Part shown: piece by piece, positions 1 to 11,609 of the stretch | How the letters are laid out: each line of letters starts with the position of its first letter | Numbering within the stretch: the first letter of the stretch is position 1 | Assembly: GCF_007197755.1 (NCBI RefSeq) | Contig: NZ_CP041636.1 | Coordinates: 310,001 to 374,000 of the forward strand | DNA: 64,000 bases | Reading direction: 5' to 3' | From: Ferrovibrio terrae | GTDB taxonomy: Bacteria > Pseudomonadota > Alphaproteobacteria > Ferrovibrionales > Ferrovibrionaceae | Translations under genes and position numbers: made by a program | Notes under the pieces: generated by a model | Databases searched by the model: none | Seen by the model: only the letters and a program-made list of their open reading frames with translations | What the model was told of the DNA's origin: nothing

Positions 1-819
1 GTCAGCTATGTCGTGATCGATCCGGCGACCAGAAACTGTGCCATCGTGGACTCGGTACTCGACTACGATCCGGCGTCCGGCCGCACAAAAACCGCGTCCG
101 CTGACAGCATCATCGCCTTCATCCGCCAGCAGGGCCTGACGCTCGACTGGATTCTTGAAACGCATGTCCATGCCGATCATCTTTCCGCCGCGCCTTATAT
201 CAAGCAGCAGCTGGACGGCCGGATCGGCATCGGCTTCAACATCACCGTCGTTCAGAACGTGTTCGGCAAGGTGTTCAATGCCGGCACCGAATTCGCCCGC
301 GACGGCAGCCAGTTCGACCATCTGTTCCGCGATGGCGAGACGTTCCGGATCGGCAATATCGAAGCCCGCGTTCTGCATACCCCCGGCCATACGCCGGCCT
401 GCATGACCTATGTGATCGGCGATGTCGCCTTCGTCGGCGATACGCTGTTCATGCCCGATTACGGCACGGCGCGCTGCGACTTCCCCGGCGGCGATGCGCG
501 CGAACTCTATCGCTCGATCCGCAAGATCTTCGCCCTGCCGCCGGAAACGCGCCTGTTCATGTGCCATGACTACAAGGCGCCGGGCCGCGAGGACTATCGC
601 TGGGAAACCACGGTGGCGGCGGAGCGCACCGGCAATATCCATGTTCATGACGGCGTGGACGAGGACAGCTTCGTCGCCATGCGGCGCAAGCGCGACGCCA
701 CCCTGGATATGCCGCGTCTGATCCTGCCATCGGTGCAGGTCAATATGCGCGCCGGCAAACTGCCGCCGGCAGAGAGCAACGGCACGCGCTATCTGAAAAT
801 CCCGCTCGACGCCCTCTGA
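1..819 (+). CDS. MBL-fold hydrolase, persulfide dioxygenase-like (5' end outside window)
   Basis: Metallo-beta-lactamase fold protein of the ETHE1/Blh type, which in characterised members oxidises glutathione persulfide to sulfite. The metal motif THVHADH is at positions 160-180, followed by HTPGHTP and VGDTLF segments and a late CHDY histidine, giving the full ligand set of the family. The reading frame is open to base 1 (VSYVVIDPATRN), and family members begin upstream of this, so the gene is cut by the window edge; the GTG at 13 is internal. The next gene, a TauE/SafE permease, starts 2 bp after the stop, matching BigR-type sulfide-detoxification operons. The cognate ArsR-family repressor, if present, would be upstream and is not visible. 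Confidence 0.85.
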   Translation, partial: VSYVVIDPATRNCAIVDSVLDYDPASGRTKTASADSIIAFIRQQGLTLDWILETHVHADHLSAAPYIKQQLDGRIGIGFNITVVQNVFGKVFNAGTEFARDGSQFDHLFRDGETFRIGNIEARVLHTPGHTPACMTYVIGDVAFVGDTLFMPDYGTARCDFPGGDARELYRSIRKIFALPPETRLFMCHDYKAPGREDYRWETTVAAERTGNIHVHDGVDEDSFVAMRRKRDATLDMPRLILPSVQVNMRAGKLPPAESNGTRYLKIPLDAL

Positions 820-821
820 TC

Positions 822-1598
822 ATGCTGACACTTACGGCAGCACAGACAGCCTTGGCGCTGGCCTCGGGCGGCGTGGTCGGCTTAGCCCTGGCGCTGGTCG
901 GCGGCGGCGGGTCGATCCTTGCCGTTCCCGCACTGCTCTATCTCGTCGGCCTGAGCGACACGCACCTCGCCATCGGCACCAGCGCGCTGGCGGTTGCCGT
1001 AAATGCCTTTGCCAATCTCGCCATGCACGCGCGTCAGCAGCCGGTGAAATGGCGTTGTGCCGCCGTCTATGCCGCCAGCGGCGTGCTGGGGGCCGCCATC
1101 GGCTCCACATTCGGCAAGCTGGTGGATGGCCGCCAGCTTCTGCTGCTGTTCGCGGCTGCCATGGTGGCGGTGGGATTCGCGATGCTGCGGCCCAAGGCGG
1201 CCGGCGGCGATCCGGATGTCCAGCTCAACGCCCGCATCTTTCCGAAACTGGCGATCTTCGGCCTGATGACCGGATTGGCGAGCGGCTTTTTCGGCATCGG
1301 CGGCGGCTTCATGGTCGTGCCGGGACTGATGGCCGGCAGCGGCATGCCCATGCTGAACGCGGTTGCCGCGTCTCTGCTTTCGGTCGGCAGTTTCGGATTC
1401 ACCACGGCTGCGAATTACGCATTCAGCAGTCAGGTTCACTGGATCGCCGCCGGCTGGTTTATCGCCGGTGGTCTGATCGGCGGCGTGATCGGGCTCCGCC
1501 TTGCCGTTCATGCCGCAACCCGCAAGGGATTGCTGAACCGGATCTTCGCCGCACTGATCTTCTGCGTCGCCGCCTACATTGTCTGGCGCGCGATCTGA
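822..1598 (+). CDS. TauE/SafE family (TSUP) sulfite/sulfur-compound permease
   Basis: 258-aa integral membrane protein made almost wholly of hydrophobic helices, with the two related glycine-rich segments typical of the TSUP fold: GGGGS near residue 28 and GIGGGF near residue 163, reflecting the internal duplication of the family. It begins 2 bp after the persulfide-dioxygenase-like gene, so the two are very likely cotranscribed. A sulfite or thiosulfate exporter is a natural partner, since the dioxygenase makes sulfite. The exact substrate cannot be read from sequence. Its stop codon directly abuts the stop of the convergent monooxygenase gene. Confidence 0.85.
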   Translation: MLTLTAAQTALALASGGVVGLALALVGGGGSILAVPALLYLVGLSDTHLAIGTSALAVAVNAFANLAMHARQQPVKWRCAAVYAASGVLGAAIGSTFGKLVDGRQLLLLFAAAMVAVGFAMLRPKAAGGDPDVQLNARIFPKLAIFGLMTGLASGFFGIGGGFMVVPGLMAGSGMPMLNAVAASLLSVGSFGFTTAANYAFSSQVHWIAAGWFIAGGLIGGVIGLRLAVHAATRKGLLNRIFAALIFCVAAYIVWRAI

Positions 1599-2771
1599 TC
1601 AGCCGCCATACAGCCAGTCATTGCCGGCATAGGCCTGCGCCTGGTTGCGGCCCGACAGCAGGCCATTGCGCAGTTCACGTACCGGTCCGGTGGCGTGATA
1701 AAAATCGCCATAGACCCGCGCCATCACCTGCACCCGCGCGGTGCGCAGGTAACGTTCCTGCTGATAGGCCAGGAAAGCGGCATGAGGATCGTCACGCCGC
1801 GCCGCCATTTTCTCGGCCAGGCAGACGGCATCTTCGATCGCCATGCAGGCACCCTGCGCCAGATACTGCAGCATCGGATGCGCCGCATCACCCAGCAGCA
1901 CGATGCGGCCCTTCGTCCAGTTCGCCACCGGCTCGCGGTCGCACAGCACCCACATGCGCCAGGAATCGATCTTGCCGAGCAGGTTATGCACCTGCGGCTG
2001 CTGGTTCTGGAACCGCTCGTTCAGCTCCTCCACGTCGCCGAAGGCGTTCCAGCCTTCTTCGTAGCGGTTGGAGTGGAATACCGCGACCAGGTTGAACAGC
2101 TCGCCGCGCCGCAGCGGGTAATGCACCAGATGCGTCTTCGGCCCGGCCCAGAGCACCACGTTATTCTCGAACTGGCCCTGCGGCACGTCAGCCGCCGGCA
2201 GCACGGCGCGATAGGCGATATGGCCAGACACGCGCGGCTTGCCGTCGTTGACGATGTCGGCGCGCACCTGCGACCACAGGCCGTCACAGGCGATCAGGCT
2301 GTCACCCGCGATCTTTTCACCATCGGCCAGCGTTACCGTCACGCCAGTGCCGCTATCCTGCCAGGCCATCACCTTGGCGTTGTTGCGCAACGTGATGGCC
2401 TTCTGTGCCAGACAGGCCTGCAGCAATGTGCCGTGCAGGTCGGCGCGATGCGTCACCGCATAGGGCATCCCCCAATGCGCGCGCGCCTGGTCGCCCATCG
2501 GGATTTTTGTCACGACCTCGCCGGTCAGGGCATCGCGCATGATCAGGTTTTCAGGAAACACCGCATCGGCTTCGATGGCAGCGCGAATGCCGAGCGCCTC
2601 AAAGCGGCGGAACACATTGGGCCCAAGCTGAATCCCGGCGCCGACTTCCTTGAACTCGGCCGACTGCTCCAGCAGCACCGAACCGATGCCTTTCAGCGCC
2701 AGCGCCAGCGCCGTCGCCAGTCCGCCAATGCCGCCGCCGATGATGATGACCGGCCGATTCATCCCCGTCAT
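1599..2771 (-). CDS. FAD-dependent aromatic monooxygenase (3-hydroxybenzoate 6-hydroxylase-like)
   Basis: 390-aa class A flavoprotein monooxygenase. The N-terminal dinucleotide-binding motif GGGIGG is at residues 12-17, the ACDG segment lies mid-protein, and the FAD-ribityl GDAAHP motif is near residue 295. Overall similarity is closest in my judgement to 3-hydroxybenzoate 6-hydroxylase/salicylate hydroxylase-type enzymes acting on hydroxylated aromatic acids with NAD(P)H; substrate assignment is inference. Two starts are possible, ATG 2771 and ATG 2762: GGGGGAG sits about 7 nt before the first and GGAGA about 9 nt before the second. A 7-bp inverted repeat lies just upstream. No ring-cleavage genes are adjacent. 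Confidence 0.8.
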   Translation of the reverse strand: MTGMNRPVIIIGGGIGGLATALALALKGIGSVLLEQSAEFKEVGAGIQLGPNVFRRFEALGIRAAIEADAVFPENLIMRDALTGEVVTKIPMGDQARAHWGMPYAVTHRADLHGTLLQACLAQKAITLRNNAKVMAWQDSGTGVTVTLADGEKIAGDSLIACDGLWSQVRADIVNDGKPRVSGHIAYRAVLPAADVPQGQFENNVVLWAGPKTHLVHYPLRRGELFNLVAVFHSNRYEEGWNAFGDVEELNERFQNQQPQVHNLLGKIDSWRMWVLCDREPVANWTKGRIVLLGDAAHPMLQYLAQGACMAIEDAVCLAEKMAARRDDPHAAFLAYQQERYLRTARVQVMARVYGDFYHATGPVRELRNGLLSGRNQAQAYAGNDWLYGG

Positions 2772-7769: not shown

Positions 7770-9467
7770 CTAGCTGCGCCCCTGCGCCGGCGGCGCAAGG
7801 CGGATCTGGTCGAGCAGCTGTTGCGTCGTATCCGGCCGATAGTCTCCCAATACCGGCGGCGCGACGCCCGTGGGGGTCTGGCCGGTGAAGGCTGCAGACG
7901 CTGCCTGCTCGGAATGATGTGTTTCGAAATAGGCCCGCGAAAGCTTGGCGTGGCGCGCCAGCGTTTCGCGGTTTGCCGAGCGCAACGCAGCGGTCAGGCT
8001 TTCCAGATCGGACCAGCGGAAGGCGCCCGGATAGACCATATCGGCCACGCAGGCAAAGCGTGACTGGTAGTTGACGTGATAAAGCACCGGAATGCCGGTC
8101 GCCATCGCCTCGATCAGCGCCTTGCCCCCGCTGGTCGGGAAGGACGCGACATAGAGATCGACTTTCAGGTCATGCAGGGCCGCGGAAAGGCTCTCGACAT
8201 GCGGCATATGCCGGAAGCGTTCGCGCGGAATCGATCGGCGATCGAGATTGCCGTGGATCTGGGCCACCACCTCGGCCGGCAGCGCGCCGATATGGATATG
8301 TTCCCCGCCGGTTTCTGCCATCATCTGCGGCAGGATATCGGCGTAGCGATAGGCGTAGCTTCTGTCGGTGAATTTGGCCGGCGAGCCGCAGGCGGCGGTG
8401 CGCACGGGTCCTTCGGCCAGGAATGCCGAGGCCTCTCGCATGGCGGTATCGCCAACCGTCATGGGAATATAGAGCGGATTGGTCTCCGGCCTGTGCCGGC
8501 AGAGCAGGTGATGCACCATCGGGGTCTGGTCGATATGCCCGGTCACAACCAGGGTGGCACCCAGACTGAAGCAGGCATCCGAATGATGATTGAAATAGGT
8601 CTTCGTGTTGCCCAGCAGTGCCGTGGCAGCCGGAATGATCGGATCATACGGATGATTGAACAGAAAAACCGTTTCCGGACGCAGCGTCTGCAGGTTCTGC
8701 AACAACCACAGCAGCGTCTGGTCATGCCGGATCTGGTTGTTGCGGTGCCAGCTGAAGTCGATCCCCTTCAGCTCCTTGTCCAGCAGGCTCTGCACCGCCG
8801 GCATCGCCATGCCGATGCCAAGCCCGGTCAGCAGAAGCACATGTTTGCGCTCTGGCTGCCGCCGGATGTAATCCAGCAGCACCCGGGTATGGCCGCCGAA
8901 TTCGTGAATCGCAGTGGCCAGATAGACAATCGGCGCCGCCGGGTCCGGATCGATCGGCGCGATCTTCGCATGACCGGCGAACAGCGCCCCCGTTTCCACA
9001 CACAATGCATCAAGCTGGGGATCGTTGCCCGGTGCCGCCCGCGACATCGGCAGGCTCTTCACCAGCCTGTAGGCGACATCTGACAGCGCCCACAGGGCAT
9101 AGCCGAAATCGCCGTCCGCGCAGGCGGCCTTCACATCCCGGCTGACGTCTTCGACGGTGGGATAAAAGCCGGCATCGATGCCCTGCTTCTGCAGATGCAG
9201 GGCACGCTTCGCCATCTGACGTGAGGTCAGCACGCGCATGTCGGCTGGGGCGTAGGGCAACAGCCTGTTCCAGATGGAGAGCGCTTCAGCCCGGTTGCCC
9301 AACGACGAATTCAGTTGCGCCATCAGCGGCAGCAGCCTGGGATCCTGTCCCAGTTTCGCGAACTGCGTCTGGATGTAGTCCAGCGCGGCCGGGGCGCCGC
9401 GCCCTGCGGCCAGCTCCTGGGTGGTCTTGACGACGTCCTCCAGCGAGGGAACAGCCTGGTCCGGCAT
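7770..9467 (-). CDS. Glycosyltransferase with N-terminal TPR-like region
   Basis: 565-aa soluble protein. Residues 1-110 form helical repeats (LPLMAQLNSSLGNRAEALSIWNRLLPYAPADM) like a TPR/SEL segment; the rest resembles a GT-B glycosyltransferase with the donor-domain segment FPTSGGKALIEAMATGIPVLYH near residue 455. Such TPR-linked transferases occur in O-antigen, exopolysaccharide and flagellin-glycosylation loci. It starts 6 bp after the FdtA-type gene, so it probably transfers the amino-dideoxyhexose or rhamnose made here. Acceptor and donor are not identifiable from sequence. Confidence 0.7.
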   Translation of the reverse strand: MPDQAVPSLEDVVKTTQELAAGRGAPAALDYIQTQFAKLGQDPRLLPLMAQLNSSLGNRAEALSIWNRLLPYAPADMRVLTSRQMAKRALHLQKQGIDAGFYPTVEDVSRDVKAACADGDFGYALWALSDVAYRLVKSLPMSRAAPGNDPQLDALCVETGALFAGHAKIAPIDPDPAAPIVYLATAIHEFGGHTRVLLDYIRRQPERKHVLLLTGLGIGMAMPAVQSLLDKELKGIDFSWHRNNQIRHDQTLLWLLQNLQTLRPETVFLFNHPYDPIIPAATALLGNTKTYFNHHSDACFSLGATLVVTGHIDQTPMVHHLLCRHRPETNPLYIPMTVGDTAMREASAFLAEGPVRTAACGSPAKFTDRSYAYRYADILPQMMAETGGEHIHIGALPAEVVAQIHGNLDRRSIPRERFRHMPHVESLSAALHDLKVDLYVASFPTSGGKALIEAMATGIPVLYHVNYQSRFACVADMVYPGAFRWSDLESLTAALRSANRETLARHAKLSRAYFETHHSEQAASAAFTGQTPTGVAPPVLGDYRPDTTQQLLDQIRLAPPAQGRS

Positions 9468-9473
9468 CCGAAG

Positions 9474-9923
9474 TCACATACCGGGCAGCGGAATGCCGGC
9501 AGCGGCCCAGCGCGCAGTGGCGGCGTGACGGAATTCGGTATGGTCGCGGATATAGTCGCTTTCCGCATAATGTGCCGACGCCATCACGAGGCAGACGGCA
9601 CCAGACGAGAAATTGTTGATCACGCGCCAGACCATCGGTTTCAGCAGCACGCCCTTATGCGAGCGATTGAGGAACACGCTTTCCTGCCGGCGGCCATCAT
9701 CGAGATGGATGCTGAAACTGCCCGAGGCGGCGATGATCAGCTGTTGCAGTGTTTTATGCGCATGACCGGCGCGCTCGGAGCCCGAGGGAACGTCGTAGAG
9801 GTAATAGACACGCCGGATATCGAACGGCACCTGACGGTCGGCTTCCACGACGGTGAGATTGCCGCGCAGGTCATGCACGACCGGCAGGTCGATGACATCC
9901 CAGCTCTTGTCGGTCTCACTCAT
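9474..9923 (-). CDS. dTDP-4-oxo-6-deoxyglucose 3,4-ketoisomerase (FdtA/QdtA-like)
   Basis: 149-aa cupin of the FdtA/WxcM family. Recognisable blocks are DLRGNLTVVE, the RVYYLYDVPSG strand, GHAHKTLQQ with the catalytic histidines, and MASAHYAESDYIRD near the C-terminus. Family members shift the keto group of dTDP-4-keto-6-deoxyglucose from C4 to C3; FdtA gives the galacto and QdtA the gluco product, which sequence alone does not distinguish here. With the FdtB-type aminotransferase and acetyltransferase upstream it forms a complete Fuc3NAc/Qui3NAc-type branch. Confidence 0.85.
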   Translation of the reverse strand: MSETDKSWDVIDLPVVHDLRGNLTVVEADRQVPFDIRRVYYLYDVPSGSERAGHAHKTLQQLIIAASGSFSIHLDDGRRQESVFLNRSHKGVLLKPMVWRVINNFSSGAVCLVMASAHYAESDYIRDHTEFRHAATARWAAAGIPLPGM

Positions 9924-10006
9924 ACGTCGGTTTTCCGCCCACAGATTCCCTTCGGCGGGAGTCTAGCCGGGAATTTATTAACAAATGCCTCAGCTTGAGG
10001 AGCCGG

Positions 10007-10930
10007 TCAGGCCTCACGAATGGCAACGCCGAAGCCGGTCTGGCCGAAACCGTTGCCGTTGTAGAACAGATGCGTGCCGCCGGGCAGCGCCGTCACCGCG
10101 CTAAAGCTGATGGCTTCCGAATCCCAGCCGTCCGGCGAGACATCCAGGCCCAGCGCCGCGTCGTCGCGCTGCCAGGTGCGACCATCGACCGAAATGGCAT
10201 AAGCCAGCCGGTAGCCGTGCCGCAGCGTACGCGTCGAGAAGTAAAGCTCGTATCCGGCCGTTGACGACACCACGAAAGGCCGGCCGAGGCCGTGTTCGAC
10301 CGCCTCATCGGGCCCGAGCACGAAACGGCTGGGCCCCGTCCATTGCCGGCCATCGGCCGAGTGTACTTCGCGCATGTGATAGCTCGGCACCGCCTTGCCG
10401 CCGACCTCCACTTCATGGTCGCCGGCGATATACAGCATGCGCCAGTTGTCGCTGCCGTCACGCAACACGAAGGGTGCGGTGCGATAGAGCAGTTCGCCGT
10501 CGCAGCGCTCCAGGATCGGCGCCTCCGAGATGCGCGTGAAGCTTTCGCCGCCGTCGCGGCTGATCGCCAGACCGCTGAACAGCGTGTAACGGACCTGCAC
10601 GCCGAGCTGATAGCCGACGTAATAAAGCCAGAGCTCGTCACCGCGCCAGATCGCGCAGGTGGGATTGACGCCATTGTCGTCAAAACAGCCCGCCCGGCCG
10701 ATATCGAGCACCGGTTTTTCTGAGCGACGCAGGATACGGGTCGGGTCGCGCGGATCGAGATCGGCATAGCCGATACGGCCGACGCCCCTGTCGTCGCAGG
10801 AGGCGAAATAGATGCGCAATCCACCATCGGGCATCCCGACAGGTGTCGGGATCATCGCATGACTGCGCGCCCAGGGCTCATGGCCATCCGGCGCATAAAC
10901 ACGCCCGAGCTTGCGCCAGCGCATGGTCAT
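10007..10930 (-). CDS. Five-bladed beta-propeller, glycoside-hydrolase-like protein
   Basis: 307-aa protein with repeated motifs of the GH32/43/68-type five-bladed beta-propeller: ARSHAMIPTP, DDNGVNPTCAIW, LWLYYVG, GLAISRDGGESF and YELYFSTRTL. No signal peptide is apparent, so it acts in the cytoplasm. Similar proteins are common in sugar-nucleotide and O-antigen loci with no settled activity. It starts 1 bp after the acetyltransferase gene and lies between it and the FdtA-type gene, so it belongs to the amino-sugar branch by position. Hydrolase function is unproven; catalytic acids cannot be assigned with confidence. Confidence 0.7.
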   Translation of the reverse strand: MTMRWRKLGRVYAPDGHEPWARSHAMIPTPVGMPDGGLRIYFASCDDRGVGRIGYADLDPRDPTRILRRSEKPVLDIGRAGCFDDNGVNPTCAIWRGDELWLYYVGYQLGVQVRYTLFSGLAISRDGGESFTRISEAPILERCDGELLYRTAPFVLRDGSDNWRMLYIAGDHEVEVGGKAVPSYHMREVHSADGRQWTGPSRFVLGPDEAVEHGLGRPFVVSSTAGYELYFSTRTLRHGYRLAYAISVDGRTWQRDDAALGLDVSPDGWDSEAISFSAVTALPGGTHLFYNGNGFGQTGFGVAIREA

Positions 10931-10931
10931 G

Positions 10932-11609
10932 TTATTCGGGCACCTTGAAGAAGCGCCAGGTCGTCAGTCTGGCAACCTCAGCATCAGCCGGACGAAACAG
11001 CTGTCCGGCGCCGGTATCTTTCGAGATCACGCAGCCGGGCCCGACCCAGTTGTCCTTGCCCAGCGTGAGATTGTTGGCCAGCGTGGCATTCACGCCGAGG
11101 AAGCTGCCGCTGCCGATGGTGCAATAGCCCGAGATCACTACATGCGATGACACGAAAACATTATCCTCGATCACGGAGTGGTGTCCGATATGGTTGCCGC
11201 TCCACAGCACGACATTGTCGCCGATGGTCACAAAAGGCTGCACCACGTTGTTCTCGAAGATGAAGCAATGCTCGCCCAGCCTGGCATTCTTCCACACAAA
11301 TGCCTGCGGGCTGATATAGCTGGCCGGCCGGTAGCCCAGTGCCCTGGCGGCCGCCAGCAGCCGGGCGCGCAGGCGATTCATCTGCGTGTAGACCACGGCG
11401 ACAAAAATATCGTGTTCGTCCGGCGGATACAGTGTGGCCAGGTTCTCAAAGGCCACGACCGGGCGGCCCAGCAGGCTGTCGCGCCCGAGATAGGCCTGCT
11501 CAACGGCAAAGGCGACCACCTCATACTCTTCGCCAGCGCTGAAATACTCGCAGGCGATCTCGGCAAAGGCGCTATCGCCGACCAGAACGAGTTTGCGTTT
11601 CTGCGCCAC
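10932..11609 (-). CDS. PglD/NeuD-type sugar acyltransferase (left-handed beta-helix)
   Basis: 225-aa protein with an N-terminal Rossmann-like PglD domain (KLVLVGDSAFAEIA) and a C-terminal left-handed beta-helix of hexapeptide repeats (residues about 100-200), containing the NHIGHHSVI segment with the likely catalytic His. Family members N-acylate UDP- or dTDP-linked amino sugars. Its place between the FdtB-type aminotransferase (3 bp gap) and the FdtA-type gene suggests that it acetylates the 3-amino group, as FdtC/QdtC does. Start is GTG, supported by GAGAGGG just upstream. Confidence 0.8.
   Translation of the reverse strand: MAQKRKLVLVGDSAFAEIACEYFSAGEEYEVVAFAVEQAYLGRDSLLGRPVVAFENLATLYPPDEHDIFVAVVYTQMNRLRARLLAAARALGYRPASYISPQAFVWKNARLGEHCFIFENNVVQPFVTIGDNVVLWSGNHIGHHSVIEDNVFVSSHVVISGYCTIGSGSFLGVNATLANNLTLGKDNWVGPGCVISKDTGAGQLFRPADAEVARLTTWRFFKVPE

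Follow-up and report, generated by a model that had tools for sequence, protein, structure and literature searches.

The analyzed stretch of 64,000 bases (hereafter, the window) corresponds to positions 310001–374000 of a single contig of 4,264,634 bases, and window positions are obtained by subtracting 310000 from the genome positions. The dioxygenase and TauE genes located at the left edge of the window represent the end of a four-gene operon, which was completed by examining the adjacent genome sequence (300001–315000, designated locus L002). All four genes are encoded on one strand in the order ArsR-family regulator, rhodanese, dioxygenase, and TauE, with intergenic gaps of 14, 11, and 2 bp, respectively (Table 1). 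The original prediction of a dioxygenase-like gene running off the left edge was thus borne out, the first 45 bases of this gene, including its ATG, being located outside the window. The proposed distance of 2 bp to the permease gene (stop at 819, ATG at 822) and the family assignments of both products (Pfam Lactamase_B and TauE) were likewise recovered.

Table 1. Features of the operon and its surroundings.
Feature	Genome position	Position in L002	Window position	Strand	Basis
Promoter-like site TTGACA-17-TAAATT	309033–309061		left of window	+	consensus scan
Paired palindromes TTAG-N6-CTAA, presumed operator	309045–309073		left of window		pattern search
ArsR-family regulator, 103 aa	309088–309399	9088–9399	left of window	+	family profiles
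YgaP-like membrane rhodanese, 176 aa	309414–309944	9414–9944	left of window	+	PF00581, PF11127
Persulfide-dioxygenase-like MBL-fold protein, 287 aa	309956–310819	9956–10819	1–819	+	Lactamase_B, E 2.9e-22
TauE/SafE-family permease, 258 aa, probable sulfite exporter		10822–11598	822–1598	+	PF01925, E 1e-43
FAD monooxygenase, convergent			1599–2771	-	NCBIfam 3-hydroxybenzoate 6-monooxygenase, 528.5 bits (cut-off 459)

The unit ends at position 1598, because the adjoining FAD monooxygenase gene is convergent and encoded on the other strand, the stops of both genes abutting at 1598/1599. A terminator-like site was identified within the TauE gene (L002 11357), for which the chance expectation in the region is 1.9 such sites. 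Upstream of arsR, a 98-bp intergenic stretch with 34% G+C is followed by an MFS transporter gene (PF06779) on the same strand. By consensus scan of the same strand, no promoter-like site was detected between the ArsR gene and the dioxygenase–TauE pair, nor between the other genes of the operon. The direct upstream neighbor of the pair is the YgaP-like rhodanese gene; accordingly, the arrangement named as speaking against the original prediction, namely a different upstream gene and a separate promoter for the pair, was not encountered at the resolution of this consensus scan.

Judged from near full-length similarity and metal-site motifs, the dioxygenase would belong to the SdoA/PDO2-type family. 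Its closest solved relatives by sequence were 9g8t (E 7e-134, 448.6 bits), 4ysk (E 2.8e-126, 423.6 bits; residues 5–286 of 287), and 4efz (E 4.1e-123, 413.2 bits), all matching over nearly the full length. The depositors' names for these entries go no further than metallo-beta-lactamase or beta-lactamase domain/family protein, and 4ysk is presumably the sulfur dioxygenase SdoA. The motifs HxHxDH (residues 70–75), HTPGH (from 141), GDT (from 161), and CHDY (from 203) are present. The score obtained with the Blh model NF040641 (411.9 bits) was below the cut-off of 625, and the match was confined to profile positions 141–423 of 423, representing the dioxygenase part of Blh alone; the N-terminal sulfurtransferase domain of Blh is absent. 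Three further dioxygenase matches in the same genome were weak (29–33% identity).

The rhodanese exceeded the cut-offs for PF00581 (72.5 bits) and PF11127 (37.7 bits) and matched both solved YgaP domains (2mpn, E 7.2e-19; 2moi, E 5.4e-18). Its rhodanese domain with a cysteine loop (cysteine 64 in CRSGNR), combined with the YgaP transmembrane domain, indicates that it is most probably a YgaP member. The permease reached 150.1 bits for PF01925 (cut-off 32.6) and thus contains the TauE/SafE family domain; by analogy with related proteins, it is a probable sulfite exporter. A sulfide:quinone reductase was not found in the genome with the single probe applied (L015:5538-7298, a DUF442-FAD oxidoreductase by eye). 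The sole match of this probe was a flavocytochrome c sulfide dehydrogenase flavoprotein (G000:C1:2995802-2996866; L127 1360–2646, minus strand; PF21706 and PF09242), which may supply the operon with sulfane sulfur. Locus L015 originates from Zavarzinia aquatilis, where a 587-aa protein (L015 5538–7301), by eye a DUF442-FAD oxidoreductase fusion, is encoded near a 77%-identical dioxygenase.

As pointed out in the original prediction, an ArsR-type BigR repressor precedes the pair in known systems. Extension to the left indeed revealed an ArsR-family gene on the same strand, but its assignment to BigR proper did not hold, the score for the BigR equivalog NF040642 being 90.4 bits against a curated cut-off of 155. 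The regulator passed the ArsR winged-helix family PF01022 (47.5 bits, cut-off 22) and the general HTH_metalloreg model NF033788 (85.7 bits, cut-off 55). Its closest solved relatives by sequence were HlyU, NolR, 6o8k/13ct (which we take to be SqrR), YgaV (3cuo), and BigR (3pqj). In the alignments inspected, which covered 6o8k and HlyU (4k2e, 5znx, and 3jth) and not BigR or YgaV, cysteines C32 and C98 of the regulator aligned with cysteines of these proteins. NolR is a close relative featuring the same helix core without a cysteine at position 32.

Among further family matches, C32 was conserved in 17 out of 17 and C98 in 16 out of 17 proteins, the seventeenth being cut by a contig end. The ArsR paralogues of the same genome (eight matches, seven of them aligned) contained C32 in no case. 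Both cysteines were present in 15 of the 19 ArsR genes located near a related dioxygenase among the matches listed; L044 lacks C98, L053 lacks C32, and the alignment stops before position 98 in L028, L053, and L064. On these grounds, the regulator most likely belongs to the BigR/SqrR/YgaV/HlyU-like, persulfide-sensing group of ArsR proteins, whose characteristic cysteine pair it possesses. For BigR (PMC5823870), YgaV (PMC9774250), and HlyU (PMC10509353), this cysteine pair was described to be crosslinked upon sulfide or persulfide treatment, with DNA binding being lost or weakened.

Regarding the predicted operator, two adjacent TTAG-N6-CTAA palindromes were found to overlie the second (-10) hexamer TAAATT of the arsR promoter-like site. 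A palindromic site is thus present at the promoter of the regulator gene, and it differs from the SqrR site ATTC-N8-GAAT (PMC9774250). The genome contains four copies of the single palindrome, of which two stand next to each other at arsR; since the reversed-pattern control yielded 26 occurrences per strand, the rarity of the single palindrome is not used as an argument. The pair was detected once per genome in 7 out of 10 genomes of the genus (including the one studied here), and the reversed pattern in 0 of the 10. In all seven genomes, it is located at the arsR promoter, corresponding to seven of the eight genomes of the genus that have an ArsR match. The palindrome arms are constant across these seven genomes and the six-base spacers vary, as would be expected of a dimer-binding site; the pair is presumed to be the operator. 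In first-order Markov sequences derived from the 98-bp intergenic region, the pair appeared in 0 of 200,000 and the single site in 761.

Two genomes without the pair (G005 and G008) showed no ArsR match at E ≤ 1e-15, and in G013, which encodes the same four genes, no palindromes were found within 200 bp upstream of the ArsR gene, and the upstream gene is a different one. The SqrR-type site ATTC-N8-GAAT had no occurrence in the 200 bp upstream of the ArsR gene at L002. A search of the genome for second regulon sites matching the pair pattern with up to three mismatches gave no convincing candidate: the scan returned the operon promoter (on both strands) and one site with three mismatches at 3470960, the reversed control giving 2 and 2. 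The remaining single palindromes of the genome are located at 3173473 and 4020195. The latter (4020195–4020208) is found directly upstream of a different ArsR gene (L012 3824–4168, minus strand), the product of which lacks a cysteine at position 32. The neighbor of this gene resembles, by eye only, an AHSA1/SRPBCC protein gene.

Within the genus, the identical order of ArsR, rhodanese, dioxygenase, and TauE genes was found in G012 and G013. In G006, G007, and G009, ArsR, rhodanese, and TauE genes are accompanied by a divergent dioxygenase gene, with the paired palindromes in between. The same layout, with the pair located at the ArsR promoter, was observed outside the genus in L128, L132, and L134, the latter two both originating from one genus. 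The divergently encoded dioxygenases (L125, L113, and L114 within the genus; L128, L132, and L134 outside) are 57–62% identical to that of the operon, and this layout suggests gene rearrangement around a conserved operator. ArsR, rhodanese, and dioxygenase genes are present in G011, where the 10 kb examined gave no match to TauE, and the contig of G010 ends inside the ArsR gene, so that the remainder of the operon is not visible. The operon of G013 (L123) is located directly 3' of an RND-type efflux pump gene, as judged by eye. In a survey of 80 named loci with a related dioxygenase (the best 80 of 584 relatives among the matches listed, with flanks of 4 kb or less), the same four-gene order was found in 0 of the 19 loci bearing an ArsR match (tblastn, E ≤ 1e-6).

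Compared to previously described systems, the operon is of the BigR/SqrR/YgaV type. The bigR operon of Xylella fastidiosa and Agrobacterium tumefaciens shares with it an ArsR-type repressor positioned at the -10 region, an ETHE1-like sulfur dioxygenase, a TauE-related sulfite transporter, and the conserved cysteine pair (PMC5823870). In that operon, a sulfurtransferase (DUF442) is described as fused to the dioxygenase as Blh (PMC5823870), whereas here a separate YgaP-like membrane rhodanese takes the place of the sulfurtransferase and the dioxygenase is a single-domain protein. Because the regulator is below the BigR cut-off and the dioxygenase lacks the Blh sulfurtransferase domain, the operon differs from bigR-blh proper. 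In Escherichia coli, the ygaVP operon likewise features a SqrR/BigR-like repressor followed by the YgaP rhodanese and is autorepressed at its promoter; neither a dioxygenase nor TauE is named alongside it in the available part of that report, where the YgaV site is compared with the SqrR site ATTC-N8-GAAT (PMC9774250). In the yeeE-yedE-pdo2 system of Acinetobacter baumannii, a second persulfide dioxygenase (PDO2) is also under BigR control, the transporters being YeeE/YedE and a rhodanese going unmentioned in the available text (PMC7315123). A Streptomyces circuit comprises the same set of enzymes (PDO, TauE, and rhodanese) together with a persulfide-sensing repressor, which, however, belongs to the CsoR family and not, as here, to the ArsR family (PMC7533328).

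HlyU of Vibrio cholerae, which by sequence ranks among the nearest relatives of known structure, shares the cysteine pair and the recognition-helix core SQSALSQHL with the regulator. Its published operator fragment carries TTAA-N6-CTAAATTAG, which resembles TTAG-N6-CTAAATTAG of the operon; the target described for HlyU is hemolysin transcription and not a sulfur-oxidation operon (PMC10509353). As far as the sites are given in these sources, the palindrome found here is nearer to the HlyU site than to the SqrR site. Overall, the locus resembles ygaVP to which a dioxygenase and an exporter have been added, and it is a combination of known modules. The exact four-gene order was named in none of the titles and abstract beginnings examined, and it is not claimed to be unpublished. 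The operon is an ordinary one, belonging to a type whose protective role against sulfide in bacteria is known; its completion beyond the window edge confirms a routine prediction. The paired palindrome at the repressor gene promoter represents a clean phylogenetic footprint and opens binding and induction to direct tests.

Taken together, the locus is considered to be a self-regulated sulfide/persulfide detoxification operon of the composition arsR (bigR/ygaV-like), ygaP-like rhodanese, persulfide dioxygenase, and tauE, with a probability of roughly 0.88. The interpretation given in the original prediction is supported, its operon being a four-gene unit on one strand and the sulfide response probable by analogy with relatives. 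Repression, inducer, cysteine chemistry, substrates, and export are deduced from characterized relatives, on the basis of which the following course can be proposed. When sulfide stress is absent, an ArsR dimer would occupy the palindrome pair at the -10 region, thereby blocking RNA polymerase. Rising levels of persulfides or polysulfides would crosslink C32 and C98, releasing the regulator from the DNA and allowing expression of all four genes. The rhodanese would then handle sulfane sulfur at the membrane, the dioxygenase would oxidize glutathione persulfide to sulfite, and TauE would export the sulfite. As persulfide falls, autoregulation would restore repression.

Alternatively, the signal sensed by the regulator might not be persulfide but peroxide, a metal, or the general redox state, and the locus might be an oxidative-stress or metal operon with a sulfur dioxygenase included by chance. 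This is conceivable in view of the diversity of ArsR proteins and of a regulator that passes the HTH_metalloreg model and fails the BigR model. Moreover, both BigR cysteines were reported to be sulfenylated and glutathionylated in vitro (PMC5823870), and YgaV was described to respond also to H2O2 scavenging (PMC9774250). However, glutathione persulfide was reported to abolish DNA binding by HlyU, on which H2O2 had no effect (PMC10509353). The alignment of C32 and C98 with the HlyU and 6o8k cysteines and the membership of all three partner genes in sulfur-linked families also argue against another signal, which is consequently regarded as improbable. Slightly less credit is given to the dioxygenase–TauE pair being a transcription unit of its own that merely adjoins an arsR-ygaP pair, as known from ygaVP in E. 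coli. The dioxygenase gene is divergent from arsR in several relatives, and linkage therefore means neighborhood and not always a single transcript. In the operon studied, however, the gaps of 11 bp (rhodanese to dioxygenase) and 2 bp (dioxygenase to TauE) and the lack of same-strand promoter-like sites in the consensus scan from arsR to the pair favor one unit, and at the divergent loci the palindrome pair between both genes could serve both.

Least probable of all appears a function of the MBL-fold protein as glyoxalase II or another hydrolase. The glyoxalase II model TIGR03413 also matches, and ETHE1 (4chl), a named persulfide dioxygenase, reached no more than 79.9 bits, a weak match, but the TIGR03413 score of 80.9 bits is far below the cut-off of 200.8, compared to 411.9 bits for the dioxygenase part of Blh. 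Likewise, entries named as glyoxalase II or hydroxyacylglutathione hydrolase reached between 22.8 and 70.3 bits (the highest, 2gcu, being named "putative" only), as against 448.6, 423.6, and 413.2 bits for 9g8t, 4ysk, and 4efz.

A tentative and rather doubtful idea concerns the whole persulfide-sensing ArsR group, which might be divided by its recognition helix, the HlyU-like SALSQHL core reading TTAG-N6-CTAA and other members, such as SqrR, reading ATTC-N8-GAAT. If true, the sequence of a member not yet studied could allow prediction of its operator and regulon. The association is a lead only, the 65 ArsR loci compared being related and best-scoring instead of random, and the motif having been chosen after inspection of the genus. 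Against such a rule, half of the core-bearing proteins lack a TTAG-type site (TTAG-N6-CTAA or CTAA[A/T]TTAG, in the region from 200 bp upstream to 20 bases into the gene). The site ATTC-N8-GAAT occurred in only 2 of the 33 loci devoid of the core, both belonging to a single genus, and in 0 of the 32 core-bearing loci. TTAG-type sites near the start were found in 16 out of 32 loci with the core and 3 out of 33 without it (Fisher p 0.0003), and, after removal of the genus, in 8 out of 23 and 3 out of 32, respectively (p 0.04).
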